Source of the DNA: Ruminococcus sp. AF31-8BH
Lineage (GTDB): Bacteria; Bacillota; Clostridia; Lachnospirales; Lachnospiraceae
Reading direction: 5' to 3'
NCBI RefSeq assembly: GCF_003460605.1
Contig: NZ_QTVN01000018.1
Span: forward strand, 81,518-101,947
DNA length: 20,430 nucleotides
Below the pieces are notes generated by a model. That model was not told the DNA's origin. It worked only from the letters and a program-made list of their open reading frames with translations, and made no database searches. Made by a program: the position numbers and the translations under genes. Shown here in pieces: positions 2,055 through 18,828 of the stretch (positions within the stretch are counted from its first letter, which is position 1; each line of letters starts with the position of its first letter).

Positions 2055-2140
2055 TTAAATATTAAAGTTAAAGGGACTTTTTGAAACCAAATTCCATTTT
2101 TATACGTATTGATAAAAAACAGGCAGATGGGATTTGGACA

Positions 2141-2701
2141 ATGGATGAAATTATTTTAATGAGAAAACTAAAGAAGAAAGATGAGAGGGCATTAGGGAAA
2201 ATCATTGATTTATATAGTGCTTATATTACATGTATTGTCTGGGAATTGCTGCACAAAAAGGGAACTAAGGAAGATATAGAGGAGGTGGTTGCTGATACCT
2301 TTATTTCCCTATGGCTAACAGCAGAGCGCATTAATTATAAACAGTATAGCAGTATTAAATCTTATTTGGCTATGATTGCAAGAAACAAGGCAAAAGATTG
2401 GTTACGTTCATATCGTGGGGGAATTTTGGAGCTTAATGATGATATTCTTTTGATCGATGGTGATGTAGAAAGATTGATTTTACAAAAGGAGCAGCAGTTG
2501 ATTATTGGAAGAACATTGGAAAAGCTGAAAGAGAAAGATAAAGCAATTTTTATTATGTACTATTATCGGTATAAAAAAATAGAAGAGATTGCAGAAATAT
2601 TAAAAATGAATCCTCAAACAGTAAAGACCCGTCTGCGGAGAGGAAGAGAAATTCTGAAAAGGATTCTTCTGGAGGAGGGATATGATGCCAGTGAAATTTA
2701 A
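2141..2701 (+). CDS. ECF-type RNA polymerase sigma factor
   Basis: A 186-residue sigma-70 family protein with only regions 2 and 4. Region 2 spans about residues 10-85 (DERALGKIIDLYSAYI, VVADTFISLWL, SSIKSYLAMIARNKAKDWLR). Region 4 spans about residues 125-175 (YRYKKIEEIAEILKMNPQTVKTRLRRGREIL). It should redirect core polymerase to a small regulon. The ATG at 2141 (MDEIILMRKLKKKDERAL) matches the usual family start. A TTG at 2081 with an AAGGGA site would add 20 residues and cannot be ruled out. The gene overlaps the membrane protein gene downstream by 20 bases, the usual arrangement with an anti-sigma factor. Activity is probably controlled by that protein. Confidence 0.9.
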   Translation: MDEIILMRKLKKKDERALGKIIDLYSAYITCIVWELLHKKGTKEDIEEVVADTFISLWLTAERINYKQYSSIKSYLAMIARNKAKDWLRSYRGGILELNDDILLIDGDVERLILQKEQQLIIGRTLEKLKEKDKAIFIMYYYRYKKIEEIAEILKMNPQTVKTRLRRGREILKRILLEEGYDASEI

Positions 2702-3425: not shown

Positions 3426-3428
3426 AAG

Positions 3429-3872
3429 ATGAAAAAAACAAGAATATTTTTGGGAATATTAGGGCTTATTTGCCTGGTTGCTATGCCAGTTTCAGCAGCC
3501 GATAATGTAAGAAATATAACAACTTATAGTATTTGTAGAGAAGATTTATATAAAGATCAGATAGAGGATAGAATGGGACTACAGCAAATTAGTATTGAAA
3601 GTGGGAAAACGGTATCCTTTTATGACTCCAATGGCTCTATGTTTTATGTGAGTGGAGGTACTACTGTTACTTTTCGGGTAAACTTGAATGTATCTTCCTC
3701 TGTAAAGATGGGGTATATCAATCAGAATGGAAGTAGAACCCAAAAGTATAGCGGTTCAGGAACTTCCCATAAAACATCATTTACAATACCGTCTAGTGGA
3801 TATTATAGATTCTATGTAACCAATAGTGGATCTAAAACAGTGAAAGTAACGGGAGGTGAAATTAGTTTCTAA
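3429..3872 (+). CDS. Small secreted beta-rich protein
   Basis: A 147-residue protein with a clear signal peptide (KK, then a hydrophobic core IFLGILGLICLVAMP, cleavage near SAA|DN). The mature part is rich in Ser, Thr, Gly, Tyr and Val and looks like a beta sandwich, with no catalytic motif or Cys pair seen. Its C-terminus (IPSSGYYRFYVTNSGSKTVK) and the DLYKDQI segment are matched in the ectodomain of the anti-sigma-like protein encoded 3 bases upstream. It may be the exported ligand, surface component or output of this signalling operon. The biochemical function is unknown. Confidence 0.75.
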   Translation: MKKTRIFLGILGLICLVAMPVSAADNVRNITTYSICREDLYKDQIEDRMGLQQISIESGKTVSFYDSNGSMFYVSGGTTVTFRVNLNVSSSVKMGYINQNGSRTQKYSGSGTSHKTSFTIPSSGYYRFYVTNSGSKTVKVTGGEISF

Positions 3873-3876
3873 AATT

Positions 3877-4845
3877 ATGAGAAGGAAAATATTTAAAATA
3901 ATAAAGTGGTTGGTTATTGTAATTCTGATTCTATGCTGCATGGGGATCACATGGAACTATTTTTGTAAAAGGAGAGAAATACCAAAGATACAAGCTGCTT
4001 ATGGCAAGGCAGTTAAAGTCAATGGGAAAAAGATGACTGTGGAAATTGCTGGTTTGCAAGCAGAAGAAACTCCAGTTATTGTATTACTCCCAGGACTGGG
4101 ATCTCCTTCTCCGGTATTAGAGTTTAGACCTTTAGCTGAGGAATTAGGAAAGACATGTAAAGTGATTACAATGGAGCCTTTTGGTTATGGACTGTCTGAT
4201 CCCGCAGATACAGAAAGAAGCATAGAGAATATCGTAGAGGAATTACATGCCTGTTTAGAGAAGATTGGAGTTCGCCGATATTATCTGATGGCTCATTCTA
4301 TTAGCGGATTGTATTCCCTGTATTATGCTAATACTTATCCAGAGGAAGTTCGTGGTTTTATAGGGATAGATTCTTCTGTACCAAAGCAAAATGAGAATGA
4401 ACCCTTTGATACAACAAAATTAAATCTTCTGATGGCCTATTTAAGTAAAACAAAAAATGTGTTGGGAATTAGCCGGATATTTTCAATTGGAAATCCGGAA
4501 AAGGCTATCTATGCAGACCAGAATTATTCTTATTCACAGGAAGACTTAGAAGTTTTTCGGATACTTTCCCTTGATACTTCTTATAACAAGACTGTAATGA
4601 ATGAATTAAAACAGGTAGAAAATAATCTGAAGATAGTGCGGAACATGAAATTTCCGAAAGAAGTGCCAGTGCTAAACTTTGTTTCAAAAGACAATTGTGA
4701 AATTTTTCCAGAATGGGAAAAGCTACATAAAAGTGTGATGGGCGATAATCAAGAGAGTGAATTAATAACGTTAACAGGGGGACATTATCTGCATTTTGAG
4801 CAGAAAGAGATGATAGTAGACCTTACATGTAAATTTGCAAGGTAG
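3877..4845 (+). CDS. Membrane-anchored alpha/beta hydrolase
   Basis: A 322-residue protein with a basic N-terminus and one membrane helix (WLVIVILILCCMGITWNYF), then an alpha/beta-hydrolase domain. An oxyanion-loop-like LLPGLGSPSP is followed by the nucleophile elbow MAHSISGL (Ser141; the final Gly of GxSxG is Ser) and a C-terminal GGHYLHFE with the probable catalytic His303. It likely acts outside the membrane on an ester, amide or peptide substrate; proline iminopeptidase-like folds are similar. The start is uncertain: ATG 3877 lies 5 bases after the previous stop, while a GTG at 3856 overlaps the previous gene. It is the last gene of the sigma-factor operon and could modify what the sensor detects. 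Confidence 0.8.
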   Translation: MRRKIFKIIKWLVIVILILCCMGITWNYFCKRREIPKIQAAYGKAVKVNGKKMTVEIAGLQAEETPVIVLLPGLGSPSPVLEFRPLAEELGKTCKVITMEPFGYGLSDPADTERSIENIVEELHACLEKIGVRRYYLMAHSISGLYSLYYANTYPEEVRGFIGIDSSVPKQNENEPFDTTKLNLLMAYLSKTKNVLGISRIFSIGNPEKAIYADQNYSYSQEDLEVFRILSLDTSYNKTVMNELKQVENNLKIVRNMKFPKEVPVLNFVSKDNCEIFPEWEKLHKSVMGDNQESELITLTGGHYLHFEQKEMIVDLTCKFAR

Positions 4846-4904
4846 TATAAAAAAATTCTATCAATCCGGGAATGGAGGTAGATATATTTTATATTAAAAA
4901 TGTA

Positions 4905-4933
4905 TTGACAATTATAAAATAGGTGCATATAAT
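4905..4933 (+). promoter_or_regulatory. Consensus vegetative promoter for the sdpR-type operon
   Basis: TTGACA (4905-4910), a 17-base spacer and TATAAT (4928-4933): both hexamers match the housekeeping consensus exactly at ideal spacing. Transcription would start near 4940, about 45 bases before the ArsR-type start codon. A promoter this strong normally needs a repressor, consistent with the operator-like repeat just downstream. Confidence 0.85.
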
Positions 4934-4943
4934 GAAGAAAAAG

Positions 4944-4967: not shown

Positions 4968-4983
4968 AAATGTGGTGATAAAG

Positions 4984-5274
4984 ATGGGCTTACCCAATGT
5001 ATTTAAAGCATTAAGTGATCCAATACGTCGAGACATATTGATAATGTTAAAAAAAAGAGGAGAACTGTCTGCAGGAGAAATTGCAGCAGAATTTGATATT
5101 TCCAATGCGACAATTTCATATCATCTGTCTTTGTTAAAAAAGGCTGATTTGATATTCGAAAATAGACAACAAAAGTATATATATTACAAGCTGAATGTGT
5201 CTGTATTCGAAGATATTGTGCTCTGGTGTATGCAATTTAATGAAGGGGATGTTGATAATGAGAAAAAAAGATAA
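4984..5274 (+). CDS. sdpR: ArsR-family autorepressor (SdpR type)
   Basis: A 96-residue winged-helix protein: VFKALSDPIRRDILIMLKKRG, then the recognition helix DISNATISYHLSLLKKADLI and a wing (RQQKYIYYKL). The LSDPxRRxIL opening and the S(N)ATISYHL helix are hallmarks of SdpR-like ArsR proteins. No metal-binding ELCVC motif is present. The ATG at 4984 gives the typical family start; an upstream GTG at 4972 would add only four residues. The gene overlaps the SdpI-type gene by 17 bases. In Bacillus subtilis the homologous pair forms a switch in which SdpI, on binding the SDP toxin, sequesters SdpR at the membrane and so induces the operon. The same logic is likely here. Confidence 0.85.
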   Translation: MGLPNVFKALSDPIRRDILIMLKKRGELSAGEIAAEFDISNATISYHLSLLKKADLIFENRQQKYIYYKLNVSVFEDIVLWCMQFNEGDVDNEKKR

Positions 5275-5866
5275 AAATACACTATTAATAACTACTTTAA
5301 TATGTGCCTGTACGGTAATTATTTATGGGATATTTTGTCATTTTTATTTAGCAGAGAGAATATTAACTCAGGATTTTTATGTTGGATTATTTTTATTAGC
5401 TATAATTATTTTTAATATTATTTTGAATATAGGATTAAATTTTACAGTTTGTAAAAAAAGGGGAGCAAAATTTTTAGTTAGATTAGGAAAATGGATTATG
5501 CCGTTTACATCACTTTTTTTTGTGATAATATCCATTCATTCTAGAATTTTTCCTGATTCTTTATTTACAGACAGTGCTGTTTATGTTTTTGTAGGCTTGG
5601 TTTTTATAGTAAGTGGAAACTATTTTCCTAAAAATCAAATGAATCCGTATATAGGTTTAAAGTTCCCCTGGTTATTGCATGATGAGAAAAGTTGGGATAA
5701 AACACATCGGTTAGCAGGTTATACATGGATATTAGCAGGTTTTTTATGTATTTTTCAACTTTTTATTAGTCCGTTAAAAATAGTGATCATTCCATTAGTT
5801 ATTATACTGGTTGGGATTCTGCCATTAGTGTATTCTCTAATGTTAGTATATATGAAAAGGAGGTAA
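5258..5866 (+). CDS. sdpI: SdpI-family membrane immunity/signalling protein
   Basis: A 202-residue protein with about six membrane helices. The conserved SdpI block is clear near residues 110-155: FIVSGNYFPKNQMNPYIGL, then KFPWLLHDEKSWDKTHRLAG. SdpI proteins give resistance to SDP-type peptide toxins and hold their ArsR-type repressor at the membrane. Start chosen at ATG 5258 because an AAGGGGA site precedes it; this places the gene in overlap with the repressor gene. The DUF1648 domain usually fused at the N-terminus of SdpI is absent here and is encoded by the next gene instead. No SDP toxin gene was recognised in the window. Confidence 0.88.
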   Translation: MRKKDKNTLLITTLICACTVIIYGIFCHFYLAERILTQDFYVGLFLLAIIIFNIILNIGLNFTVCKKRGAKFLVRLGKWIMPFTSLFFVIISIHSRIFPDSLFTDSAVYVFVGLVFIVSGNYFPKNQMNPYIGLKFPWLLHDEKSWDKTHRLAGYTWILAGFLCIFQLFISPLKIVIIPLVIILVGILPLVYSLMLVYMKRR

Positions 5867-5871
5867 ATGAA

Positions 5872-6168
5872 ATGAAAAAACATGTGATTATTGGAAGTGC
5901 AATTTGTCTTGCAACAGTGTTGATTTTAGGCCTTTTTTGGGGGAAACTCCCTATGGATGTACCAATTCATTTTGATTCCGCTGGTAATGTGGATTCTACA
6001 TTGCCAAAACCTATTGTTGTGTTTGGAATTCCCGTTATTTGTGCATTGATTAATGGAGTAGCTAGTTTTTCTTTGCTTCATAAGCAGGAAAAACGCAAAT
6101 TTATGTTTTATTTAATACCTGTAATTGCAGTTGTTTTGGCAGTTGCAGTAATCGTACTGGCAATTTAG
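5872..6168 (+). CDS. Stand-alone DUF1648 membrane protein
   Basis: A 98-residue protein with three hydrophobic segments and the DUF1648 signature LPMDVPIHFDSAGNVDSTLPK between the first and second. DUF1648 is normally the N-terminal part of SdpI-like proteins. Here it follows the SdpI gene by 5 bases with a strong AAGGAGG site, so the two halves of the usual protein are encoded separately and in reversed order. It probably works in complex with the SdpI-type protein. Confidence 0.85.
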   Translation: MKKHVIIGSAICLATVLILGLFWGKLPMDVPIHFDSAGNVDSTLPKPIVVFGIPVICALINGVASFSLLHKQEKRKFMFYLIPVIAVVLAVAVIVLAI

Positions 6169-6274: not shown

Positions 6275-6985
6275 ATGCTTGAAATTAGAAATTTAACAAA
6301 AACATATCCAAATGGAAAACAAGCAGTGAAAAATTTAAGTATAACTATAGAAGATGGAGATTTGTATGGATTTATAGGGAAAAATGGTGCAGGAAAAACA
6401 ACTACATTAAAGGCTTGTCTTACTATTCACGACTTTGATTCCGGAGATATTCTTCTAAATGGAATATCAATTAAATCAAATCCGATAGAATGTAAAAAAA
6501 GAATGGCCTATGTTCCTGACTCGCCTGTGTTGGAAACATACTTAACAGGTCTGCAATATTTAAATTTTGTATGTGATATTTATGATGTATCAACACATAC
6601 TAGGAAGAATAAAATTATTGAATTATCGGAGCGATTAGGTATGAAAGATAAGTTAAATGACTTAATAGGCTCTTATTCACATGGTATGAAACAGAAAATT
6701 AGTTTAATAGGCGCTTTGGCTCATGAACCGCTTTTATTAATTTTAGATGAACCATTTGTAGGTCTAGATCCTGAAGCATTTGTTGAATTAAAGCTGCTTA
6801 TGAAAGAACTCTGCAATTCTGGTGGCTCTGTTTTATTTTCAAGTCATATTCTTGATGTTGTAGAGAAGACGTGCAATAAAATTGCTATTATTCAAAATGG
6901 ACAACTGCTTAGATGTGGCGAAATAAGAGAGATTTTAGGAACAAGTGATTTGGAAGATATATTTATGGAGTTGAATAGGATATGA
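6275..6985 (+). CDS. ABC transporter ATP-binding protein
   Basis: A 236-residue, complete nucleotide-binding domain: Walker A GKNGAGKTTT (35-44), Q-loop region in CLTIHDFDSG and VPDSPVLETYLTG, signature SHGMKQKIS, Walker B LLLILDEPFVGLDP and H-loop SSHIL. All catalytic residues are present, in contrast to the ATPase-like protein at 417. It belongs to the ABC-2 exporter group (CcmA/BcrA-like). An AAAGGAGAG site precedes the ATG and the stop overlaps the permease gene by 4 bases. Substrate unknown; its place after the SdpI genes and before two regulators and a RiPP cluster suggests peptide export or self-protection. Confidence 0.93.
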   Translation: MLEIRNLTKTYPNGKQAVKNLSITIEDGDLYGFIGKNGAGKTTTLKACLTIHDFDSGDILLNGISIKSNPIECKKRMAYVPDSPVLETYLTGLQYLNFVCDIYDVSTHTRKNKIIELSERLGMKDKLNDLIGSYSHGMKQKISLIGALAHEPLLLILDEPFVGLDPEAFVELKLLMKELCNSGGSVLFSSHILDVVEKTCNKIAIIQNGQLLRCGEIREILGTSDLEDIFMELNRI

Positions 6986-8556
6986 AAATATTTAAAATTC
7001 TTATTTTTAAACAGGCACAAGAAATATTTAAATTCAACACTTTATTTTATGGAGATAAAAAAGAAAAAAAAAGATATTTATTAATTTTTTGTGCAGTTGT
7101 TTTGTGCATAGGAGTATGTGGTACATATTTATTTGGAAATATGTATCAGGTTTGTATGGAATTTGAGAAGCCACAAGAAATTCTAGAATATTTAATTAAT
7201 CCATTAGGTTTACTTGCTTTTCTTATTATATTTTTTTCTTCACTTTTGAAGGGCAGTGGAATGTTATATTCGGATAGAAGTAGTGATATATTATTTTCTT
7301 ATCCCGTAAAGACTATTTGTATAGTTTTAGCAAAAATTTTTTTTCTATACTTATGGGGAGTCATTATATCTTTAGCTTTTTTGATTATTCCGATTCTTCG
7401 ATATACGATATTGCTACATAGTATATTATTTGGAATTTTGGATTGCCTTCAAATATTTATTTTTCCAATTATTCCAATGCTACTAGGGGTAATATCAGGA
7501 TATATTTTATATAAACAGATTGTAAATATTTATAAATCACAAGTTTTTGTCCGTAGTATTTTGTACATGGTAATACTTTTTGCTTTTATGTTTTTTATGT
7601 TTTTTTTCTTTGGAAAGGTAGATTTGAATAGCATTTATAGGCATATCCTTACAAAAGTAGATATTACTTATTTGGTTGGAGGAGTATTTTTTACATATAA
7701 AGTAGGTGCTGCATTGGCATCTGTGGTTGCATTAATAAGTGGCACTGTGCTAATTATTTACATCTCTAAAAACTATAAGAAAAGATATATAAATTTGCAA
7801 ATAAATCAACAGAAAGGAAGTTCACTGAATTTATCATTCAAAAAAAATAGAAAAATATATTCCCTCTGGAAACGTGAAATAAAGAGGTATCTTTCAATTC
7901 CTATTTATTTGATAAATACAATGTTGGGAAATGTTTTGCTTCTACTGTTTGTAATATATTCATCTATAGCGTCAGAAAAGGTAACTGCATATTTTAATTT
8001 AATTAGTGAGCTTCTGGAAATTCAAGATCCTATGGTTTTATACAGTTACGCTATGAGCCTTATGATCATTTTAACTAATGTAAGTTATGCAAATATATCT
8101 ATTGAGGGAAAGAATAGAGAAGTATTAAAATCCTTTCCTGTATCGATAAAAGAGTTACTTACTGCAAAATACTTATTTCATCTTTCTTTAACAGTACCGA
8201 TGATATGTTTAGCAACGATTATTTTAGGGATTACTTACCATATGAATAGCTATGAATATTTTTTGTGCTTTATTTTGCCACTTTCATTCTCCGCCTTTGC
8301 CGGAGCATTGGGATTATTTATAAACCTATTATTTCCTAACTATGAATGGGAAAATATAATCTATATTGTTAAACAAAGCATACCGGCTATTTCTACAATA
8401 TGTTTGAGCTGTCTGATTGGAGTTGGTATGATATGGTGTATTATAAAAATATTTGGACATAGTATTTGGAGCGCATCGTACATAGTGGCTTGTATTTTAT
8501 TTGCTTTTGCCTTTTTAATAATACAGTTTATGAAGAAGATAAGTAATAACTTTTAG
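6982..8556 (+). CDS. ABC transporter permease (about 12 membrane helices)
   Basis: A 524-residue membrane protein with a short cytoplasmic N-terminus (FNTLFYGDKKEKKRY) and two halves of about six hydrophobic segments each, separated by a charged linker near residues 255-310. It starts inside the stop codon of the ATPase gene, so the two form one transporter. The size and layout fit ABC-2 type permeases that work with a single ATPase gene. Sequences such as YSDRSSDILFSYPVKT and EGKNREVLKSFPVSIKELL form a pair of similar cytoplasmic elbows, one per half, as expected from internal duplication. Substrate unknown; a bacteriocin immunity role is an inference from context. Confidence 0.88.
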   Translation: MKIFKILIFKQAQEIFKFNTLFYGDKKEKKRYLLIFCAVVLCIGVCGTYLFGNMYQVCMEFEKPQEILEYLINPLGLLAFLIIFFSSLLKGSGMLYSDRSSDILFSYPVKTICIVLAKIFFLYLWGVIISLAFLIIPILRYTILLHSILFGILDCLQIFIFPIIPMLLGVISGYILYKQIVNIYKSQVFVRSILYMVILFAFMFFMFFFFGKVDLNSIYRHILTKVDITYLVGGVFFTYKVGAALASVVALISGTVLIIYISKNYKKRYINLQINQQKGSSLNLSFKKNRKIYSLWKREIKRYLSIPIYLINTMLGNVLLLLFVIYSSIASEKVTAYFNLISELLEIQDPMVLYSYAMSLMIILTNVSYANISIEGKNREVLKSFPVSIKELLTAKYLFHLSLTVPMICLATIILGITYHMNSYEYFLCFILPLSFSAFAGALGLFINLLFPNYEWENIIYIVKQSIPAISTICLSCLIGVGMIWCIIKIFGHSIWSASYIVACILFAFAFLIIQFMKKISNNF

Positions 8557-8582: not shown

Positions 8583-8855
8583 ATGATGGGAAACAGTGAA
8601 GAAAAATTAGATTACTATTTTAAAGTATTATCTAATAGAATAAGGAGAAATATACTTCTTTTACTGGAAGAGGAGAGCTTGTGCGCTGGAGATATAATAA
8701 AACATTTTGATTTAACGGGAGCTACTATATCGTATCATTTAAAGGTATTGACTAAAAGTAAAATACTGGTGCGAAAGAAGCAAGGGCTTACTGTGTATTA
8801 TTCACTTAATCAACCAGAATGGGAATATATAAAGAACTGGTTTAAATGTGGATAG
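8583..8855 (+). CDS. Second ArsR/SdpR-type regulator
   Basis: A 90-residue winged-helix protein clearly related to the repressor at 4984: FKVLSNRIRRNILLLLEEE, LTGATISYHLKVLTKSKIL and a wing QGLTVYYSL. No cysteine metal site is present apart from two isolated Cys. It starts 27 bases after the permease stop, behind a GAGGTG site, and may begin at either of two adjacent ATGs. Its position at the end of the ABC operon suggests that it controls this transporter. No second SdpI partner is present. Confidence 0.85.
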   Translation: MMGNSEEKLDYYFKVLSNRIRRNILLLLEEESLCAGDIIKHFDLTGATISYHLKVLTKSKILVRKKQGLTVYYSLNQPEWEYIKNWFKCG

Positions 8856-8877: not shown

Positions 8878-9225
8878 ATGGGAAAATATATAGAAATTTC
8901 AAAGAAACTTAAAGAGGATATATTTAATGGAAAATTCAAAGAAGATGAAAAGCTACCAAGTGCAAGAAAATTAGCACAGAATTATGAGATTAATGTTGCA
9001 ACAGTTCTTCGAGCTTTACATGTTTTAAGAGAACAGCAAATTATATGCAAAAATAGAACAAGCAGATTTTATGTATGCCATAATATTTCCTGCATTCGTC
9101 AAAAATGTGTAAGACAAGAAATACAAAATTTCTTTGATAAAATGAGTTTGCTGGGATATTCTAAGATAGAGGTTCAAAACTTATTAACGAAACAGTTGAA
9201 AAAAGAAAGTGTTTTTAAAAGATAA
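8878..9225 (+). CDS. GntR-family regulator (YtrA-like, short)
   Basis: A 115-residue protein with an N-terminal GntR winged helix (ISKKLKEDIFNGKFKEDEKL, PSARKLAQNYEINVATVLRALHVLREQQII) and a short helical C-terminal tail (about residues 80-115) instead of a large ligand domain. YtrA-type short GntR proteins usually control ABC transporter operons linked to antimicrobial peptides. It begins 22 bases after the second ArsR gene behind a GAGGTG site and is followed by a terminator, so it closes this operon. It may regulate the ABC genes to the left, the RiPP promoter to the right, or both. Confidence 0.85.
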   Translation: MGKYIEISKKLKEDIFNGKFKEDEKLPSARKLAQNYEINVATVLRALHVLREQQIICKNRTSRFYVCHNISCIRQKCVRQEIQNFFDKMSLLGYSKIEVQNLLTKQLKKESVFKR

Positions 9226-9228
9226 AAG

Positions 9229-9277
9229 AAATCGTATTACTAATAATATTTTGTATTGTTGGTAATGCGATTTTTTT
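9229..9277 (+). terminator. Intrinsic terminator before the RiPP cluster
   Basis: AATCGTATTACTAA (9229-9242) pairs with TTGGTAATGCGATT (9259-9272) over 14 positions with two G-T pairs, followed by a run of seven T. It lies directly behind the GntR gene and separates the transporter-regulator operon from the radical-SAM operon. Confidence 0.85.
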
Positions 9278-9429: not shown

Positions 9430-10251
9430 ATGGCAGGGTATTTAAAAGAACCAGTTGTATTACAATGGGATATGAAAACAGGATCTTATGGCAAAATTGT
9501 ACAGCATATTATCGAAAAAAAAGTATGTGAATTAGATCCCATTAAAATAAGGTACATAAATCCTAAAGATGTAGATGATTTTTCTACTATTGATAGGATT
9601 AAGAAGCAAATACTTGTTCAGTGTTCTCAGATTGAAATGGACTTTTTTGAAATAACTGAAGAACAAATAGAAAAATTGAATATTGATCAGACATTTCAAT
9701 ATTTTTTAAAATTTGATAGTTTTAATCTTGAAATCTCAATGTATTCAAAACTAAAATTCCTATTACAAAAAATCGAAGATTTGAACGTAATAGTATATAT
9801 TACGGATAAAAATTTTTATCAAAGTGTTGAATTAATAAAATGGATATATAATGAAAATTCCAATATTTCCTTTTATATATATCCGGATAAAAAGAAAGAA
9901 AATTTTTTGGTTCATGTACCTAAATTACATAATGCAATATTAGAAATTATATCGTTATGTAAAGTATATAAAAATATTAAATTATCTATATACGATAAAG
10001 AAAAAATAATAAAAGATATACTTCCTTTAAATTATTATAGACATGGTAATTTTTGTATTACGGAGACAGGAACAGTTGCATTGTATGATTTTCTTCCTGA
10101 TTACGAATACGGACTAATTACAACTGATAAAACTATTAAGGAAATATGGAGGGATATCTTAATAGAGCATGGTGATAGTGACTTATGTAAAATCCTTGAA
10201 GAACAGAGATACTGGTTCAAAAAGAGGAATGGAAATGGAGACCAGCTATGA
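9430..10251 (+). CDS. Radical-SAM-like protein that has lost its cluster cysteines
   Basis: This 273-residue protein aligns at both ends with the radical SAM enzyme at 11813. Near the N-terminus PVVLQWDMKTGSYGKIVQH matches PLNIMWDMTNKCNLCCMHC, but the three [4Fe-4S] cysteines are replaced by Ser19, Ile23 and His26. Near the C-terminus ITETGTVALYDFLPDYEYG (from residue 210), then KTIKEIW, matches IRCNGDIVVSPYLPFLYG and NTLNQLW. It is about 40 residues shorter between these points. It cannot hold the radical SAM cluster and is probably a pseudoenzyme that binds the precursor or supports the active radical SAM proteins. It is the first gene of the operon and overlaps the next by 4 bases. The homology is read by eye; it would otherwise pass as hypothetical. 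Confidence 0.7.
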   Translation: MAGYLKEPVVLQWDMKTGSYGKIVQHIIEKKVCELDPIKIRYINPKDVDDFSTIDRIKKQILVQCSQIEMDFFEITEEQIEKLNIDQTFQYFLKFDSFNLEISMYSKLKFLLQKIEDLNVIVYITDKNFYQSVELIKWIYNENSNISFYIYPDKKKENFLVHVPKLHNAILEIISLCKVYKNIKLSIYDKEKIIKDILPLNYYRHGNFCITETGTVALYDFLPDYEYGLITTDKTIKEIWRDILIEHGDSDLCKILEEQRYWFKKRNGNGDQL

Positions 10252-10469
10252 AAGTGTTTTTTACAGAAATTTTTGCATTATATAAGAAAAATAAAAAATT
10301 TTTTCTTATAAATAAAAAATTGGATACAATTATTCCAATTGAAGAAACGTTATATTTTATGCTTAATCAAATAATCCTGAACGGAGAAATGGATATTAAT
10401 GCTATAAGGATACGGGCAGATACACTAGATATATTGTTGTATAACCGTATATTGGGGGTGAAAAATTGA
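10248..10469 (+). CDS. Small protein of the RiPP operon, possibly a divergent PqqD-like domain
   Basis: A 73-residue protein coupled by ATGA overlap to the pseudo-radical-SAM gene and by TTGA overlap to the B12 radical SAM gene, so it is surely part of the pathway. The pattern FALYKKNKKFFLINKK, then PIEETLYFMLNQIIL, then DINAI and DTLDILLYNRILG loosely follows a PqqD/RRE fold: a beta hairpin, a helix, and a closing helix leading to a strand. No catalytic motif or membrane helix is visible. Function unknown; the RRE idea rests on pattern only. Confidence 0.6.
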   Translation: MKVFFTEIFALYKKNKKFFLINKKLDTIIPIEETLYFMLNQIILNGEMDINAIRIRADTLDILLYNRILGVKN

Positions 10470-11776
10470 AGGTTATTTTGATTAATACAGATTTTATGCA
10501 TGATGTAGATACTACAGTGCAGCCATTAACAATGTACACTATTGCAGGAATTATTTCACCATTTGTTGATCAAGTAGAAGTTATTGAACCTATGAAATAT
10601 AGAATTGCAAATCTACAGGAAGATATATTAACTGTAATACTCAAAAAAATAAGAGATGCTGATCTTTTGGCATTTACAGTAAATACGTTTTCTTGGGCAG
10701 AAATTTTACGGTTGATTAAAAAAGTGAAAGATAATAATAAACAAATAAAAATTGTTATTGGCGGAATTCATATATCATATTTTTATAAGGAAATTATGTT
10801 GAAAACTCCCCAAATTGACTATGCTTTAGTAGGAGAAGCAGAAATTGCCTTTCCAAAGTTTATTCAATATCTTAAAGGTGAATTGCGCATTGAGGAAGTG
10901 CCAAATTTAAAGTATGTTCAACATGAAAAACTAATAGAGAATGCAAAAGCACCGTTAATAGATTTCGAACATGAAATAGTTCCTATGCCTCGTTATGATT
11001 TGGCAGAAAAAAATTTTTTTGACAGATTTACATTTGAAGCATCGAGAGGATGTCAAGGAAACTGTAGGTTCTGCTCTATATTTTATAAAAGATGTTGGAG
11101 AAAATATTCGGAAGATACGGTATTAAATCGTTTGTCTATATTTAAAAAATATTTGGATTCTCTATGCAAAAACAAAGATTTTATATTTACAGATGATTGT
11201 TTTACTACGGATCAGCAATGGGCCAGAAATGTTTTAGGTGGAATGTTAAACTTAGGATACAAAGATTATAATATTTTAATTGAAGCTCGGGCAAAACATT
11301 TATGGGATGAGGCATTGCTTGATATGATTAAATCTTATGATAATTTGCATATACAAATCGGTATAGAAAGTGGCTATGACGAGGGATTGAAAAAGATTAA
11401 CAAGGAAATAAGAGTAGAAGATGTATTAAAAACGGTTTCATTACTAGAAAAGTACGACTTATGCAAAAGAGTATTTACATCGTTTATTATTGGATTTCCA
11501 TGGGAGTCTAAAGAAGAATGTATGAAAACAATAGAATTTGCAGCTTTTTTAAATGATTGCTATTCAATCACTGTGAATGTAGCGTGGTGGATGCCGCTAC
11601 CTTCAAACTTGTTTTCAAAATATTTTAAAGATACAAGTATATTTACGCAGGATAATTTTGCAACAAATAAAGAAATTTTTTATCAAGCACACCCGAAAAT
11701 TGGAGTTAATGATGTTATGGATATTGATAGGTGTGATTCAATTTACAAAAATCTTGGGATTTGCTGGAGATTATGA
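10466..11776 (+). CDS. B12-binding radical SAM enzyme (probable peptide C-methyltransferase)
   Basis: A 436-residue class B radical SAM protein. The N-terminal part (about 1-150) has the cobalamin-binding Rossmann form (LLAFTVNTFSWAEIL, IVIGGIHISY, YALVGEAEIAFPKF). The radical SAM domain begins with SRGCQGNCRFCS, Cys196, Cys200 and Cys203 forming CxxxCxxC, followed by FTDDCFTTD and IQIGIESGYDEGLKKINK. Enzymes of this type methylate unreactive carbon atoms; PoyB and PoyC do so on polytheonamide. Here Val, Leu or Ala residues of the 58-residue precursor are likely targets. It starts at TTG 10466 behind a GGGGGTG site, overlapping the previous stop. At 436 residues it is short for the family. 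Ring formation or another radical reaction is the alternative. Confidence 0.88.
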   Translation: MKVILINTDFMHDVDTTVQPLTMYTIAGIISPFVDQVEVIEPMKYRIANLQEDILTVILKKIRDADLLAFTVNTFSWAEILRLIKKVKDNNKQIKIVIGGIHISYFYKEIMLKTPQIDYALVGEAEIAFPKFIQYLKGELRIEEVPNLKYVQHEKLIENAKAPLIDFEHEIVPMPRYDLAEKNFFDRFTFEASRGCQGNCRFCSIFYKRCWRKYSEDTVLNRLSIFKKYLDSLCKNKDFIFTDDCFTTDQQWARNVLGGMLNLGYKDYNILIEARAKHLWDEALLDMIKSYDNLHIQIGIESGYDEGLKKINKEIRVEDVLKTVSLLEKYDLCKRVFTSFIIGFPWESKEECMKTIEFAAFLNDCYSITVNVAWWMPLPSNLFSKYFKDTSIFTQDNFATNKEIFYQAHPKIGVNDVMDIDRCDSIYKNLGICWRL

Positions 11777-11812: not shown

Positions 11813-12835
11813 ATGAACAAAACAAAAACGATAGGAAAAATTGATAAAAAAACAATTCAAACAGAATATGGAAAATTAAGCGGACCTCTTAACATTATGT
11901 GGGATATGACAAATAAATGTAATTTGTGTTGTATGCATTGTTATAACAAAAGCGGAAAAGATGCACATTACAAGGATTTAGATGATGAAGATATGATGAA
12001 AATTGCTCATCATATTGCAGAAGCAGGCATACCGATAGTGTGTTTTTGCGGTGGAGAGCCATTATTGAGATATCCATTACTTCTGAAGGCAGCAAAAGTT
12101 TTGTCGAGCAGAGGAATAGTGGTAAATATGGTGACAAATGGATTATTACTGACGACAGAGAAAGTAAAAATGCTACGAGAAAGTGGTGTAAATGGTATTC
12201 AGATTAGCCTTGACTCATATTCACCGGCTATACATGACAAATTTAGAGGGAAAGATGGAGCTTATGACAAAGCCTTGGAAGCAATAAAAATAATTCTCAA
12301 TTCGGGGATCGTTCCTGAGGTTACATTTATTCCAACAAAGCAGACTTATCAAGGGATAGGGAAGGTTATTGATATTTTGATTGAAATGGGAATTAAATCT
12401 CTTAATTCCATGCCTTTTATACCAATAGGAAGAGGATATGATAATAAAGAGCAGTTAAAGATGTCAGTAGCAGAAAAATGGGAATTTGAATGGCTTGTTC
12501 GGAAAAAACTTTATGAATACCCAGATTTTTCCTTTAATAATGGTGATCCTTTAGAGCATATTTATTTGTTTTCGCAGAATCCAGATGCAAAAACTATTAC
12601 ATACGAAATTAGATGTAATGGAGATATTGTAGTAAGTCCATATTTACCGTTCTTATATGGCAATGCTGTAAGTAATACATTAAATCAACTGTGGGAAGAT
12701 GGGCTAAAAGATGTATGGAAGATACCTGAGGTTAATAATGCAGCAAAAAGAATTGTTTCATTAGATGATATTGAGCAACAGAAAAATAGACCTTGGAATA
12801 ACCAGGATATACAATTATATAGTGAAAGGAAGTGA
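11813..12835 (+). CDS. Radical SAM enzyme with vestigial SPASM-like tail (RiPP maturase)
   Basis: A 340-residue radical SAM protein: MWDMTNKCNLCCMHCYN with Cys36, Cys40 and Cys43 as CxxxCxxC, the SAM-binding FCGGEPLLR (GGEP at 80-83), VTNGLLL and the ISLDS strand. It is PqqE/MftC-like, but the C-terminal region carries only one Cys (Cys268 in IRCNGDIVV), so no auxiliary SPASM clusters can form. Peptide epimerases of the PoyD/OspD/EpeE kind need a lone Cys as hydrogen donor; Cys77, Cys79 or Cys268 could serve. Epimerisation of alternate residues of the Asn-Ala precursor is therefore a reasonable inference, with cross-linking as the alternative. The PqqD-like partner gene follows with 1-4 base overlap or a 5-base gap, depending on its start. 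Confidence 0.9.
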   Translation: MNKTKTIGKIDKKTIQTEYGKLSGPLNIMWDMTNKCNLCCMHCYNKSGKDAHYKDLDDEDMMKIAHHIAEAGIPIVCFCGGEPLLRYPLLLKAAKVLSSRGIVVNMVTNGLLLTTEKVKMLRESGVNGIQISLDSYSPAIHDKFRGKDGAYDKALEAIKIILNSGIVPEVTFIPTKQTYQGIGKVIDILIEMGIKSLNSMPFIPIGRGYDNKEQLKMSVAEKWEFEWLVRKKLYEYPDFSFNNGDPLEHIYLFSQNPDAKTITYEIRCNGDIVVSPYLPFLYGNAVSNTLNQLWEDGLKDVWKIPEVNNAAKRIVSLDDIEQQKNRPWNNQDIQLYSERK

Positions 12836-12840
12836 AAAAA

Positions 12841-13116
12841 ATGATTTTTAACAAGGTTGAAAATAGTTATATCGGTCTGTTACGTGAGGAAACAGATGGT
12901 ACACGTTTATTTTATCCCAGAGCACATTCAAAACCTCATTTTATGAATAAGACTGTGTATGAAATTTGGGATCTTATTGATAATCGTTCTGCACAAGAGA
13001 TTGTAAACATATTGAAACATAAATATCCTGGTGTATCAGAACAGAGATTATTAAATGATGTAAATCATACAATAGCTTATTTATTAAATTTAGAAATGAT
13101 TAGGGAGGTAAAGTAA
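12841..13116 (+). CDS. PqqD-like peptide recognition protein (RRE)
   Basis: A 91-residue PqqD-family protein. A strand pair (YIGLLREETDGTRLFYP) leads to HFMNKTVYEIWDLIDN, the helix SAQEIVNILKHKYPG and a final helix NDVNHTIAYLLNLEMI. Proteins of this fold bind the leader of a RiPP precursor and present it to radical SAM enzymes; the gene directly follows one, as pqqD does with pqqE. The ATG at 12841, 10 bases after AAAGGA, is preferred over the GTG at 12832 that would overlap the previous stop. It most likely binds the leader part (residues 1-23) of the peptide at 15064. Confidence 0.88.
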   Translation: MIFNKVENSYIGLLREETDGTRLFYPRAHSKPHFMNKTVYEIWDLIDNRSAQEIVNILKHKYPGVSEQRLLNDVNHTIAYLLNLEMIREVK

Positions 13117-13117
13117 A

Positions 13118-13621
13118 ATGGGAAAAAAGAATTGCTTTGTATCTTTGTTTGAAGAAAAAGATTTTTTAGAAGCATCAAAATTTATTATCGAAGAAAAAGA
13201 ACACTGTCATGATGGATACTTATTTTTTCCAGAACAATACGAAGGAAAAAATTTTCCGGAGTATTATCGGGCAATAAATATGAGAACAAATCATTTCCAT
13301 GAAGCAGAAGTATACCTGAATGTAATTGATAAAGTGACAAAAGAAAGAATTGGTGTAGTGGGAATTTATATTTGCCCCAACAATTACGTAGTATATATAA
13401 CTACAATGGTATTACAGAATAAAGGATATTTGGAAGTGGCACTTGCTCAGTTAAATGCACAATTAAAAGCACAATCTGTTGAGTACGTAAAAGTTAAATT
13501 TACAGATCAAAGTGAAAATATTGCACATACATGGCAGGAGAATGGATTTGAAAGAGAATGCGTTATTCGCGCAGAAGGAATCAAGAAAAGCGATTTTTGG
13601 ATATATTCAAAAAAACTGTAA
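13118..13621 (+). CDS. GNAT-like acetyltransferase
   Basis: A 167-residue protein resembling GNAT N-acyltransferases: strands EVYLNVIDKV and IGVVGIYICPNNYVVYITTMVL, then a helix (YLEVALAQLNAQLKAQ), the strand YVKVKFTDQSENIAHTWQ and the typical ending ENGFERECVIR. The acyl-CoA loop LQNKGYLEVAL is a weak form of the usual RxxGxG/A motif. Because the precursor has no lysine, the likely acceptor would be the N-terminal amine freed by leader removal; N-terminal caps are common on beta-helical peptides. Acylation of a different molecule, for self-protection, is the alternative. The gene starts 1 base after the PqqD stop behind GGGAGG. Confidence 0.6.
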   Translation: MGKKNCFVSLFEEKDFLEASKFIIEEKEHCHDGYLFFPEQYEGKNFPEYYRAINMRTNHFHEAEVYLNVIDKVTKERIGVVGIYICPNNYVVYITTMVLQNKGYLEVALAQLNAQLKAQSVEYVKVKFTDQSENIAHTWQENGFERECVIRAEGIKKSDFWIYSKKL

Positions 13622-13635: not shown

Positions 13636-15003
13636 ATGTTAAATTCGAATATCAGTAATGAAAGCGCTCAAGGATTTGGAGAATGGTTAAGAGAAAGTAA
13701 TTATGCTTTCATTTACAAAACTATGGCTGGAATATTCAATACGGTAGAGCCATGGATTGATGAAAAAATTATAAATGAAATGCTGAAAGATGTAACAGAA
13801 ATTGATAGGCATATAACAGAGTTTTTCTTATTGGGATATGCAAAAGATAAAAAACTGTTGAAAAAAATATTAGGAGATAGGAACCTGGAATTTTTATGTG
13901 AAACAGGATTTGCATCAGACGTGGAGGGGCTAATTGAACCTCAAGGATTTGTAATTTTACCCGTTGATGATTTGTTTTTGATCGTAAGTTTACCTAGCTG
14001 CTATAGTAATGCCAAAAAACGAATGTCGGATATTTATATAGGATCGGATTCTACAAAATTAATGAAATATATCAAGAGAGATTCTTATGATAGTGTTTTG
14101 GATTTATGTGCAGGTTCTGGAGTTCAAGGATTAAACATTATAGAAAACGCTGAAAAAGTGGTTGAAGTAGAGTTGAATGATGTGGCATATAATGCTGCCA
14201 TATTAAATGGAAAAATCAATGGAATATCTCCAAAGAAATACGAAGTGAGGAAAAGTAATCTGTATCAAATGGTACCTGAACAATTTGACTGTATTATTAG
14301 CAATCCACCATTTGTTCCAGTTCCAGAAAATATTGTTTTTCCATTGTGTGGAGATGGAGGCGAGGACGGACTCGATTTGGTAAGAAAGATTATTAGCGGC
14401 TATACACAACATTTAAAACCTTTTGGAAAAGCATATATGGTTTTGGAATGTATAGGAGATGAAGAAGGTCCTTATGTAGTAAAATGCATGAAGGAAATTT
14501 TGAAAAGTGGAAGTATCAATGTATCATTAATCAATAGACAGCAGATAGAATTTCAGGCAGACGCATCTGCCAAAATTGCAATTGAGATATATAAAGATCC
14601 AGAAAATTATAACAATTACTATAATGCATGGATGGATATGTTCAATAGAACAGGAGCTACTTATATTTATCCTGTTGTTGTGGAATATATCAATAATGGA
14701 AAACCTTTAGAAATAAATATTATCAGAAATTATAATAAATGGGCTTTAGATTCTAAATTTGAATTAGCACCAGATGTGGCAATAGTAAAAAAAGAAAAGG
14801 ATTTTTATGAAGTTACAGTTAATGGAGTAGGTAGAGCTGCGTTTGATGAGGAAGTTAAACACTTAATAGAAGATATGCCAGGGAAGAAATTACGAGAATA
14901 TCTGGATACGGAGGATAATCCCAGAATTAATATTTCGAAGATTAAGAGTTTGTTGAATACAGTGAACGGTTTAGAGGCCAAAGGGATTATCATTCCTAAG
15001 TAA
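13636..15003 (+). CDS. SAM-dependent N-methyltransferase with NPPF motif
   Basis: A 455-residue protein. An N-terminal helical domain (about 1-130) is followed by a class I methyltransferase domain: motif I VLDLCAGSGVQG (154-165), the acidic VEVELND and the catalytic NPPF (223-226). A C-terminal domain of about 150 residues of unknown role (residues 300-455) follows. The (N/D)PP(F/Y) motif marks enzymes that methylate planar nitrogen, including the Gln side-chain amide in PrmC/HemK. The adjacent precursor carries 14 Asn in its core, so side-chain amide N-methylation of Asn, as PoyE does in polytheonamide, is the natural inference. The gene lies 15 bases after the GNAT gene behind GTGAGGAG and 60 bases before the precursor. 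Confidence 0.85.
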   Translation: MLNSNISNESAQGFGEWLRESNYAFIYKTMAGIFNTVEPWIDEKIINEMLKDVTEIDRHITEFFLLGYAKDKKLLKKILGDRNLEFLCETGFASDVEGLIEPQGFVILPVDDLFLIVSLPSCYSNAKKRMSDIYIGSDSTKLMKYIKRDSYDSVLDLCAGSGVQGLNIIENAEKVVEVELNDVAYNAAILNGKINGISPKKYEVRKSNLYQMVPEQFDCIISNPPFVPVPENIVFPLCGDGGEDGLDLVRKIISGYTQHLKPFGKAYMVLECIGDEEGPYVVKCMKEILKSGSINVSLINRQQIEFQADASAKIAIEIYKDPENYNNYYNAWMDMFNRTGATYIYPVVVEYINNGKPLEINIIRNYNKWALDSKFELAPDVAIVKKEKDFYEVTVNGVGRAAFDEEVKHLIEDMPGKKLREYLDTEDNPRINISKIKSLLNTVNGLEAKGIIIPK

Positions 15004-15063: not shown

Positions 15064-15240
15064 ATGGAGTTATTAACTAATGGTTATGATAGCCCTGAAA
15101 TCGTATCTGATGATGGAAGCATTCAGCCAAGAGCATTAGTTTTAGTAAACGTTAATGTCTTGGTAAATGCAAACGCAAACGCAAATGCGAATGCAAATGC
15201 GAATGCAAATGCAAATGCGAATGTAAATGCAAATGTGTAA
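15064..15240 (+). CDS. RiPP precursor with strictly alternating Asn/Ala-Val core
   Basis: A 58-residue peptide. ATG 15064 is chosen because AAAGGAGG lies 9 bases upstream; the longer open frame from 15007 lacks a site. Residues 1-23 form an acidic leader-like part (MELLTNGYDSPEIVSDDG, then SIQPR). From Leu25 to Val58 residues alternate: Asn at 29, 31 and every odd position 35-57 (14 in all), Leu at 25, 27 and 33, with only Val or Ala at even positions. Nine Asn-Ala pairs run in a row. This mirrors the NVNANV-type end of the polytheonamide core, where alternate residues are epimerised and Asn are N-methylated to form a membrane-spanning beta helix. It contains no Lys, Cys or Trp. It lies between the modification genes and an exporter. 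The product class is inferred. Confidence 0.85.
   Translation: MELLTNGYDSPEIVSDDGSIQPRALVLVNVNVLVNANANANANANANANANANVNANV
15166..15237 (+). repeat. Hexanucleotide (AAY GCN) repeat encoding Asn-Ala
   Basis: Twelve consecutive 6-base units AAY-GYN encode the Asn-Ala/Val run; the first nine are AAY-GCN, with only third-base variation (AAT/AAC, GCA/GCG). Such short in-frame repeats can gain or lose units by slippage, changing the peptide by two residues at a time without disturbing its alternating phase. Confidence 0.9.
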
Positions 15241-15261
15241 ATGTAAGGGACTAAAGTAATG

Positions 15262-15315
15262 AAAAGAGCTGCATGGTACATAGAGGTAAACTGTATGTCA
15301 TTATGTAGCTCTTTT
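15262..15315 (+). terminator. Hairpin between precursor and exporter genes
   Basis: AAAAGAGCTGCAT (15262-15274) pairs with ATGTAGCTCTTTT (15303-15315) with one mismatch, and inner CATA/TATG arms extend the stem. The right arm runs into TTTTT. It sits 21 bases after the precursor stop and 27 bases before the exporter gene: a probable leaky terminator giving excess precursor transcript, as in many RiPP clusters. Confidence 0.75.
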
Positions 15316-15342
15316 TAAATAGAAAGTTTTGATGGGTAAAGC

Positions 15343-16959
15343 ATGAAAAAAATATTTATGAGTATATTTGGTAAAAGTAAGAATAAATTTATAATTCTTA
15401 CTGTAATTAGTCTATTGCTTGCAGCTATTGGGATTGTATTACCATATTTAAATGGTGAATTTATAGATTATTTGGCTACAGGAGTGGGATATAGTTTTAT
15501 ATTAAGAATGTGTATTTTCATTTTGTTATTGGGATTGATAAATGTTACTCTATATTATGTGAAGCAAATTTTGAATGCAAAAATTAAATTGGAATCCTCC
15601 TATTTATTAAAACTAGAAATTCTTAAACATCTTAGAGATATTCCAATATTGTCATATAAGAAATTCACCCCGTCTTATTTGAATCAGAGAACCGAACAAG
15701 ATATAGGAGATATTGTTTCCTTTATTATATCAAATTATCCGGCAATTATATTGAATGCTATTCAGATTATAGGATTATTTATTATAATTAGTAGAGTTAG
15801 TAAAGGGGTTGTTATACTGATGCTGATTTTTCTTCCGGTGTATTATGTTATGTACGTATTTCTTAGAAAACCATTATACACGAAAAGTTATGCATCAAAA
15901 GAGGCACATAATTTATATTTTAATACATTGAATGATCAATTAGCTTTCATGGAGGAAATAAAAACTAATGCAAACTATGAATACAATAATCTATATATTG
16001 ATAAATACTATAGAAAATACTATAGAAATTATTTAGAGTTTGTAAAAATAAGTGGAAAGTCAATTTCAATAGAAGGAATTATATCAGCCTTATTTCAAGT
16101 GGCTACATTTTTATATGGTGGTTGGCAAGTTTTAAATCATAACATGTCCGTAGGACAATTGACTGTTATGTGTACATATTTTTCTATGATGCTTCAATTG
16201 ATAAAATATTATTTTGAACTTGGAAATTCATTTCAAAATGTAAAAACATCACTACACAGACTAGAAGCTATTTTTCATATTGAAGTAGAAAAAGAAGGAA
16301 ATATTCTGTTGGAAAAAATAGAGAATATTTCAGCATCAATTACATTTGGATATGATTCAAATAACTTTATTCTAAAGGAGTTACCATTAGAGTTGTGTAG
16401 AGGAAAAATCTATTGCGTAGTGGGAAAGAATGGAGAGGGAAAATCAACACTTACCAAAATATTAATTGGGATTCTACATGCAAAATCAATATTAGTCAAT
16501 GGAATTAATATTGATTGTTTAAATATGGAGGAACTGAGAAAAAATAGTATTCTTTATATTTCTCAAGCATTAAACTATCCAAATAGGACTATAAAAGAAA
16601 TATATCAGGAGTACAATTCTAATATTCGGTTGGAAGATGTTATTAGAAAGATTAAGGAACATGATCTGAATGAGGAACAATTAATACCTTTATATCAAGA
16701 AAACTGGAATAAGAATATAAATACTTTATCAGGAGGAGAAAAACAGATAGTCTCTATTCTAAAGTGTTTAGTAAAAGAAGCTGATATGATTATTTTTGAT
16801 GAACCGACCTCTAATTTAGATATAAAAAGAATAAATGCTTTATTAAGATTAATTGAACGATTGAAAATGGAAAAGAAAATACTATTAATAGTGTCACATG
16901 ATTCAGAAATAATACAAGCAAGCGATATTATTATTAGACTTGGAAACATTCAGCATTAA
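15343..16959 (+). CDS. ABC exporter, fused membrane and ATPase domains
   Basis: A 538-residue half-transporter with about six membrane helices in residues 1-300 and a C-terminal nucleotide-binding domain: Walker A GKNGEGKST (361-369), signature NTLSGGEKQ, Walker B MIIFDEPTSNLD (Asp486, Glu487) and H-loop VSHDSE. It would act as a homodimer. There is no C39 peptidase domain before the membrane part, so it exports but does not cleave the leader; the protease must be elsewhere. It is the last gene of the RiPP cluster, after the precursor and a hairpin, and is followed by a terminator. The substrate is most likely the mature Asn-Ala peptide. Confidence 0.92.
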   Translation: MKKIFMSIFGKSKNKFIILTVISLLLAAIGIVLPYLNGEFIDYLATGVGYSFILRMCIFILLLGLINVTLYYVKQILNAKIKLESSYLLKLEILKHLRDIPILSYKKFTPSYLNQRTEQDIGDIVSFIISNYPAIILNAIQIIGLFIIISRVSKGVVILMLIFLPVYYVMYVFLRKPLYTKSYASKEAHNLYFNTLNDQLAFMEEIKTNANYEYNNLYIDKYYRKYYRNYLEFVKISGKSISIEGIISALFQVATFLYGGWQVLNHNMSVGQLTVMCTYFSMMLQLIKYYFELGNSFQNVKTSLHRLEAIFHIEVEKEGNILLEKIENISASITFGYDSNNFILKELPLELCRGKIYCVVGKNGEGKSTLTKILIGILHAKSILVNGINIDCLNMEELRKNSILYISQALNYPNRTIKEIYQEYNSNIRLEDVIRKIKEHDLNEEQLIPLYQENWNKNINTLSGGEKQIVSILKCLVKEADMIIFDEPTSNLDIKRINALLRLIERLKMEKKILLIVSHDSEIIQASDIIIRLGNIQH

Positions 16960-18051: not shown

Positions 18052-18828
18052 ATGACAAATCAGAGTATAATAGATAAACTTATTGAAATGCGCCTAACCA
18101 CAATGGCAGATGCATTCCGTAACCAGCTTAACGATTCTAAATTCAAGGAAGTTCCTTTTGAAGACCGCTTTGGAATGCTGGTAGACATCGAATACAGCAA
18201 TCGCAAGAATAACCGCCAGAAGCGTCTTATCCACAATGCCGGATTCGACCAGCCGGAAGCAAGTATCATGGATATCAACTATACTTCCGGACGCAAGCTG
18301 AACAAGGAGCTGATAAACAGACTCGCCACCTGCGAATATATATCTGAACACCGGAATCTATTTATTACCGGTGCAACAGGCTGTGGTAAAACATACATGG
18401 CATGTGCCTTTGGTATGGAAGCCTGCAAGCAGTATTACAATACCAGGTATGTCCGTATGCCAGACTTACTCATGGATTTGGACATTGCACGAACTGAAGG
18501 GAACTACCGCAAAGTTATGGCAAAATATTCCAATCCAGTGCTTCTCATTCTGGATGAATGGATGCTTCTCAAACCAACTGATACAGAGCAGAAAGATATC
18601 TTCGAACTTCTTCATCGGAGACGCAAGAAATCATCAACCATCTTCTGCTCTCAGTATGTATTCGAAGAATGGTACGATCAGCTTGGAGGAGAAGCAAGTC
18701 CTCTGGCTGATGCAATCATTGACCGTATTGCCCATGACAGCTATCAGATCAACATCACAAGTATTGATGCTGAGCATGACAAGTCCATGCGGGAGGTGTA
18801 TGGCCTAGATAAAACACTGCGCGAGTAA
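18052..18828 (+). CDS. istB: IstB transposition helper ATPase
   Basis: A complete 258-residue IstB/DnaC-like AAA+ protein: an N-terminal helical segment (LIEMRLTTMADAFRNQL), Walker A TGATGCGKTY, Walker B VLLILDEWML and sensor region STIFCSQY, ending in DRIAHDSYQINI. IstB binds ATP and DNA and directs the IstA transposase to its target. It starts 6 bases after the istA remnant behind GGAGGT. Its partner is destroyed, so it can act only with an IstA from another copy in the genome. Base composition is nearer 45% GC, unlike its AT-rich neighbours. Confidence 0.93.
   Translation: MTNQSIIDKLIEMRLTTMADAFRNQLNDSKFKEVPFEDRFGMLVDIEYSNRKNNRQKRLIHNAGFDQPEASIMDINYTSGRKLNKELINRLATCEYISEHRNLFITGATGCGKTYMACAFGMEACKQYYNTRYVRMPDLLMDLDIARTEGNYRKVMAKYSNPVLLILDEWMLLKPTDTEQKDIFELLHRRRKKSSTIFCSQYVFEEWYDQLGGEASPLADAIIDRIAHDSYQINITSIDAEHDKSMREVYGLDKTLRE

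Follow-up and report, generated by a model that had tools for sequence, protein, structure and literature searches.

We found that a 58-residue peptide encoded in Ruminococcus sp. AF31-8BH is, judging from its sequence, likely the precursor of a ribosomally synthesized and post-translationally modified peptide (RiPP). The gene (15064-15240, + strand) lies in a 20,430-nt stretch of DNA (contig NZ_QTVN01000018.1, positions 81,518 to 101,947), called the window below. The core of the peptide alternates asparagine (Asn) or leucine with alanine or valine, and its gene stands in a conserved operon of modifying enzymes and an exporter. We consider it probable that the precursor is matured to a polytheonamide-like, beta-helical ion channel of alternating L and D residues with N-methylated Asn, made behind a non-proteusin leader and directed against rival bacteria. 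As a candidate beta-helical channel RiPP, it resembles polytheonamide but has a leader of a new type. Below, L numbers denote loci and P numbers protein matches; G596 is the genome that holds L093.

The precursor and its relatives

The precursor carries a YxxPxI leader motif (Y8-P11-I13) and a core of residues 25-58, and AGGAGG, which resembles a ribosome-binding site, directly precedes its open reading frame (ORF). Recounting the core bore out the alternation described in a first-pass annotation of this DNA: even positions hold 10 Ala and 7 Val, odd positions 14 Asn and 3 Leu (25, 27 and 33), and nine Asn-Ala pairs follow in succession at residues 35-52. The placement of 14 of 14 Asn in one phase had an exact p of 9.8e-7 given the composition, and none of 200,000 shuffles reproduced it. 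The core is uncharged and contains only Asn, Ala, Val and Leu, which leaves few radical reactions possible besides inversion and methylation. When neighbouring units were compared across the 12 units from residue 35, seven differences were synonymous and five non-synonymous. The five were Ala/Val swaps in the last units, and within the nine Asn-Ala pairs every base difference (7/7) was synonymous, indicating that the repeat is not merely a DNA microsatellite. Among control sequences (77 loci, 1.18 Mb, 9,928 ORFs of 25-140 aa) four ORFs had at least four N.N patterns and none of the four had a YxxPxV-like leader; such a leader is present in five of five precursor loci, but these had been selected for having it.

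A profile made from five precursors matched 45 proteins at E ≤10 and 19 at E ≤0.001, and the retained matches mostly combine a [Y]xxPx[V/I]-like motif with an Asn-alternating core. Asn phase was counted over 40 related rows, comprising 35 of the 45 matches, the window and four loci, with L002 repeating P0132. The results revealed 493 Asn in phase and 1 out, 39 of the 40 rows having none out; this ratio is inflated by selection with an alternating profile and by relatedness, but core lengths still differ while the phase is constant. Ten matches were left out, being truncated or chimeric (P0136, P0144, P0148 and P0150) or leaderless or chimeric (P0167, P0169, P0170, P0172, P0173 and P0174). Their Asn counts in and out of phase were 2/0 (P0150), 2/1 (P0144), 5/5 (P0169), 15/3 (P0170), 10/2 (P0172), 10/0 (P0167), 6/0 (P0173) and 12/0 (P0174), with none counted in P0136 and P0148. 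Both P0148 and P0144 join a window-type leader to unrelated sequence, the end of P0148 reading as lantibiotic synthetase-like, and either recombination or chimeric assembly may lie behind this. P0170 joins the start of an ABC ATPase to a P0164-type core; it could be a chimera, and the fusion hints at precursors of this sort having an ABC ATPase gene close by, as is the case in the window and L093.

The spacing of Asn was then considered for relatives whose slots are partly filled. In these 18 rows of a longer class, Asn lag 6 was raised over random same-parity filling, with a fraction of ≤0.02 in 17 of 18 (the exception, P0135, gave 0.092), and lags 2, 4 and 8 were not raised. Such spacing is what a beta helix turning about every six residues would give. 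Slots are full or nearly full in the other 15 rows, including the window's close kin, and the lag is uninformative there, as it is in the window itself (11 versus 10.4 expected, fraction 0.40). In polytheonamide B (Asn among residues 8-46, PDB chain 2rqo) lag 6 was again the most raised (7 versus 4.9 expected, fraction 0.053), and 2rqo was the best, insignificant PDB match of P0163 (E 1). Of the two marks of a polytheonamide-like core, one-parity Asn was found in the window and a spacing of six in 17 of the 18 longer relatives.

Tryptophan (Trp) followed the opposite rule, lying opposite to the Asn phase 43 times and in the same phase once. Streptococcal-type cores carry it at -3, -5 and -9, some also at -7, opposite to Asn; P0151 and P0157 are named Streptococcus suis and S. 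pyogenes. Gramicidin A, an alternating L/D beta helix, likewise has alternate Trp at its C-terminus, but unlike the window precursor it is non-ribosomal, has 15 residues and contains no Asn. Peptides of the P0151/P0157 type share their streptococcal naming with the streptococcal radical S-adenosylmethionine (radical-SAM) RiPPs, or RaS-RiPPs. In the available part of a review of the latter (PMC13361665), 0 of 16 subfamily names (TQQ, WGK, KxxxW, GGG etc.) point to an Asn core, and that part has no mention of "asparagine" or "NWN".

The leader of about 23 residues is not of the nitrile-hydratase-like (NHLP) proteusin kind, in agreement with the first-pass annotation: no NCBIfam leader family was found on the window precursor, P0163, P0145, P0151 or the L003 precursor, and in Pfam the window precursor had only a sub-threshold DUF2807 match. 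Its YxxPx[V/I]-type motif is shared with lasso and LPP peptides, in which a small recognition element binds this leader according to the available part of PMC13381572; their cores are unrelated, and no lasso or LPP enzyme match was found among the window operon proteins scanned. Two earlier suggestions, a cut after Arg23 and a core matched in length to the bilayer, did not survive comparison with the relatives. The residue aligned to Arg23 is Arg in L002, L003 and P0151, but Gln replaces it in L001 and L093, the two syntenic operons, and P0139 has Ile, so the cut is not supported. Nor is the length match, since cores of close relatives measure 20, 26, 30, 32 and 34 residues (15.6-26.5 angstrom at the rise assumed in that annotation) and those of the longer class about 60; these lengths were read by hand from the sequences and equal the phase-count cores minus one leading residue. 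Gly-Gly occurs at or just before the YxxP motif in the longer precursors P0147, P0149, P0154, P0159, P0160, P0162 and P0163, so a double-glycine peptidase might make another, N-terminal cut in these.

The modifying operon, its distribution and flanking SdpI-type genes

We found all three components of a RiPP system, namely leader, modifying enzymes and exporter, together in one conserved operon, as had been proposed for the precursor. Upstream of it, on the + strand like every gene of this operon, are a B12-binding radical-SAM enzyme of 436 aa (10466-11776, family matches), a predicted C-methyltransferase; a 340-aa radical-SAM enzyme (11813-12835), a predicted peptide epimerase with CxxxCxxC, an invariant CxCGGE and a tail that reads as SPASM-like; a 94-aa PqqD-type RiPP recognition element (12832-13116, PF05402 E 7.5e-9); a 167-aa GNAT-like protein (13118-13621); and a 455-aa HemK-like methyltransferase (13636-15003) with the motifs YIGxDS, DLCxGSG, NPPFVPxP and GGEDGL, a predicted Asn side-chain N-methyltransferase. 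Downstream lies an ABC exporter with membrane and ATPase parts (15343-16959, family matches), in which the family scan found no peptidase domain. Cys77 and Cys79 of the 340-aa enzyme were invariant in 72 sequences; either might be a hydrogen-donating Cys of the kind looked for in radical-SAM peptide epimerases such as PoyD and EpeE. The GNAT-like counterpart is fused to a PqqD-like protein in L001, L002, L003, L093 and L094, and the fused profile matched 8a9n (E 4.5e-4); the model of the fusion is weak (pLDDT 58), so its Foldseek GNAT matches are only a hint beside that profile match.

When the methyltransferase profile A1 was compared with the PDB, 7rc2-7rc6 were the best matches (E 8.6e-28), followed by MJ0882 (2.4e-16) and HemK (7.6e-12). 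Positions 130-291 aligned with 7rc2, with YIGxDS, DLCxGSG, NPPFV and GxGxDGL in common, and the catalytic domain and motifs by which PoyE/AerE-type methyltransferases are recognised are thus both shared. The PDB file says only "Methyltransferase family protein"; we take 7rc2-7rc6 to be AerE, which N-methylates Asn in the channel peptide aeronamide.

According to the available part of PMC9505594, one radical-SAM enzyme introduces 18 D residues into polytheonamide, and PoyE methylates eight D-Asn. The part available of PMC11285071 describes polytheonamide, from Entotheonella, as stabilised by Asn ladders at i and i+6, with methylated Asn 16, 22 and 28 forming such a ladder and the helix lost when methylation is reverted; it gives Asn 25, 31, 37, 41 and 43 as AerE substrates and Microvirgula as the source of aeronamide. 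The likeness to polytheonamide that was noticed at first is now backed by features common to both systems: one-parity Asn, the spacing of six in longer relatives, a 7rc2-related methyltransferase, and a radical-SAM together with a B12-radical-SAM enzyme. The window differs in having a short YxxPxI leader and a separate PqqD-type protein in place of a nitrile-hydratase-like leader, in showing no dehydratase or oxygenase match among its operon proteins scanned, and in a far more regular core, with its relatives in Bacillota.

A syntenic operon with the same kind of precursor was found in L001, from a metagenome-assembled genome labelled Paenibacillaceae, and in L093. L002 and L003, both Lachnospiraceae records, have the operon in reduced form: besides the precursor and exporter it comprises the radical-SAM enzyme, methyltransferase and PqqD-GNAT fusion, and the ORFs listed include no B12-radical-SAM enzyme. 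Methyltransferase identity to that of the window ranges from 26 to 67% across loci and is 65% for P0015, from a record named Clostridium sp. BNL1100. The enzyme was found in few genomes: 3/397 and 3/391 genomes of two families (seed genomes included, at most four candidates scored per genome) and 1/11 and 1/22 genomes of two smaller families, these being the seeds themselves. A search of the phylum matched G596 alone (1/299). Precursor and enzyme matches P0143/P0026, P0145/P0208 and P0168/P0232 agree pairwise in source and in longest-contig figure (2422, 9641 and 10559), suggesting that each pair lies on the same contig. No title or abstract describing this precursor family was found among open-access full texts, most subscription papers being outside that search.

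SdpI/DUF1648 genes flank five of five precursor clusters (window, L001, L002, L003 and G596). In the window these are, both on the + strand, an SdpI-family membrane protein (5195-5866, PF13630 E 5.4e-16), likely for immunity, and a DUF1648 membrane protein (5872-6168, PF07853 E 4.2e-14), which is fused with SdpI in L003. The four genomes searched have one to four SdpI/DUF1648 loci each, and the sole DUF1648 match of G596 adjoins the cluster. SdpI confers immunity to a toxin that collapses the proton motive force. The SDP cannibalism toxin system resembles the window in its SdpI, DUF1648 and SdpR-like genes, but no SdpC, SdpA or SdpB match was found among the 22 distinct window proteins scanned.

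Proposed maturation and competing readings

In the maturation that we propose, the YxxPxI leader would be bound by the PqqD-type protein, and every other residue, most likely each Asn, would be inverted by the 340-aa radical-SAM enzyme. The HemK-like methyltransferase would next transfer methyl groups to the side-chain amides of Asn, and C-methylation of some Val or Leu would fall to the B12-radical-SAM enzyme. The leader would be removed by a protease and the product exported via the ABC protein. With Asn at every second residue and six residues per turn, Asn would stack over Asn and line the outside of the helix as three ladders. The Leu/Val part at the N-terminus would go into the membrane, and the alternating L/D beta helix would conduct ions through the membranes of competing bacteria, the SdpI/DUF1648 proteins protecting the producer.

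Two findings weigh against this channel pathway. The peptide had been expected to accompany its enzymes, and it does so in five loci (window, L001, L002, L003 and L093); it is missing from the distant loci L094-L096, three of the eight studied, although a methyltransferase of this family has been retained there, with stops in those of L095 and L096. Furthermore, the 340-aa radical-SAM enzyme resembles crosslinking enzymes more closely than it does a known epimerase. Fold and profile both placed it nearest SkfB and SuiB (profile E 2.3e-35 for SkfB versus 7.6e-11 for EpeE), EpeE was rejected as its nearest fold, and no PoyD model was among the best 25 of 90 family matches. The epipeptide system YydF/EpeX with EpeE is accordingly not its closest structural counterpart; YydF is short and non-repetitive and is not known to carry methylated Asn.

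This kinship lends itself to another reading, in which the radical-SAM enzyme forms a different bond (Val cyclopropane rings, Asn-centred links or desaturation) with no epimerisation and the methyltransferase acts on Asn of an L peptide. A radical-SAM enzyme that converts Val to repeated cyclopropylglycine in a repeat peptide is indeed described in the available part of PMC9062424. We nevertheless judge this reading unlikely, if a serious contender: the usual crosslink partners are missing from a core of these four residues, Ala, at 10 of 17 even positions, is unable to form cyclopropane rings, PoyE acts on D-Asn (PMC9505594, part available), and the six-residue Asn spacing of relatives fits a beta helix.

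It is improbable that a beta helix is formed that makes no pore and acts as a signal, as a cofactor or in binding metal, the SdpI-type genes being present by chance or as sensors. A core length ranging from 20 to about 60 residues and the SdpR/ArsR-like and GntR regulators nearby would suit such a role, but the window core lacks charge, the C-terminal Trp of streptococcal-type forms is gramicidin-like, and the closest solved methyltransferase, 7rc2, presumably comes from a channel-peptide pathway. We give little credence to a peptide that stays all-L, with minor modification, as a flat beta strand or amyloid whose Asn face makes a surface or adhesive material. Strict alternation is also expected of an amphipathic beta strand; however, the leader motif, PqqD-type protein, radical-SAM enzymes, methyltransferase and exporter are kept with the peptide, SdpI-type genes adjoin the cluster, and a flat strand does not require the spacing of six. 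A decaying or inert simple repeat, open by chance, can practically be dismissed: repeat number differs among the near-identical copies P0130, P0131 and the window, but the differences in the Asn-Ala pairs are synonymous, and leader, phase and operon are kept across loci whose methyltransferases have diverged to the extent given above.

Polytheonamide and aeronamide, channels with methylated Asn and D residues, are proteusins, and the channel pathway proposed here would place the same design behind another leader and in Bacillota, including streptococcal-named proteins. We judge it evenly balanced whether gene-encoded analogues of gramicidin and polytheonamide form a broad class in Bacillota that reaches from Clostridia to Streptococcus. 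In such a class the Asn register would be a helix code, with one ladder slot per six residues and one, two or three columns filled; C-terminal Trp would anchor the tube, the L/D pattern would be written by a radical-SAM enzyme that belongs to none of the known epimerase families, and immunity would be of the SdpI type. Two questions could ideally be addressed with so nearly crystalline a core: how a single radical-SAM enzyme sets the alternation of L and D residues, and what number of Asn ladders a beta helix requires. A further prediction is that SdpI-type proteins protect against pore peptides.

Other features of the window and related loci

The remaining features of the window described in this paragraph are also on the + strand. 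An ArsR-type regulator gene (4972-5274, PF12840 E 4.9e-15) precedes the SdpI gene. An ABC ATPase (6275-6985) is partnered by a membrane protein (6982-8556; PF16949 E 6e-4, below cut-off), with a similar pair in L093, and an ArsR/SdpR-like repressor (8583-8855; NF033789 E 3.6e-22, below its cut-off) and a GntR-type regulator (8878-9225, family matches) come next. The terminator consensus scan placed a terminator-like hairpin upstream of the operon (9229-9273). It is followed by a conserved 273-aa protein (9430-10251), whose C-terminal part weakly resembles a radical-SAM enzyme tail (hhalign E 0.0069, probability 5.5), and by a small conserved protein of 73 aa (10248-10469), which was tried as a second recognition element and was not supported as such. 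The precursor and exporter genes are separated by a strong RNA hairpin whose 3' side is rich in U (15260-15317; -32.6 kcal/mol, z -6.95, 0/200 shuffles as stable), a possible terminator or attenuator that is absent from the four terminator-like sites of the consensus scan.

Directly upstream of the L001 cluster (2073-4941, - strand) are genes that read as agr-like, encoding a membrane protease, a histidine kinase and a LytTR-type regulator, and these possibly provide quorum control of the cluster. At L094 (6825-15068) a related radical-SAM enzyme, a PqqD-GNAT fusion and a distant methyltransferase stand beside carrier-protein-like and adenylating-enzyme-like genes, with no Asn peptide, and the same enzymes may serve a hybrid pathway there.

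Viral contigs searched with the methyltransferase, the radical-SAM enzyme and long precursors yielded nothing useful. With the bare DNA pattern for (Asn-Ala/Val)6, 103 viral stretches were matched; four or more N.N occurred in 22 of the ORFs of 25-140 aa on them, a YxxP-like motif in six of the 22, and on reading none of the six was alike. With low-complexity filtering applied, the precursor matched nothing in phages or plasmids, and four plasmid records carried distant methyltransferases (44-53% query coverage). The methyltransferase matches P0014 and P0022 are identical to the window's over 69% and 64% and carry another domain, which is IstB in P0014. An IS21 IstB gene is also present in the window (18052-18828), suggesting that this element may insert into the cluster in some strains.
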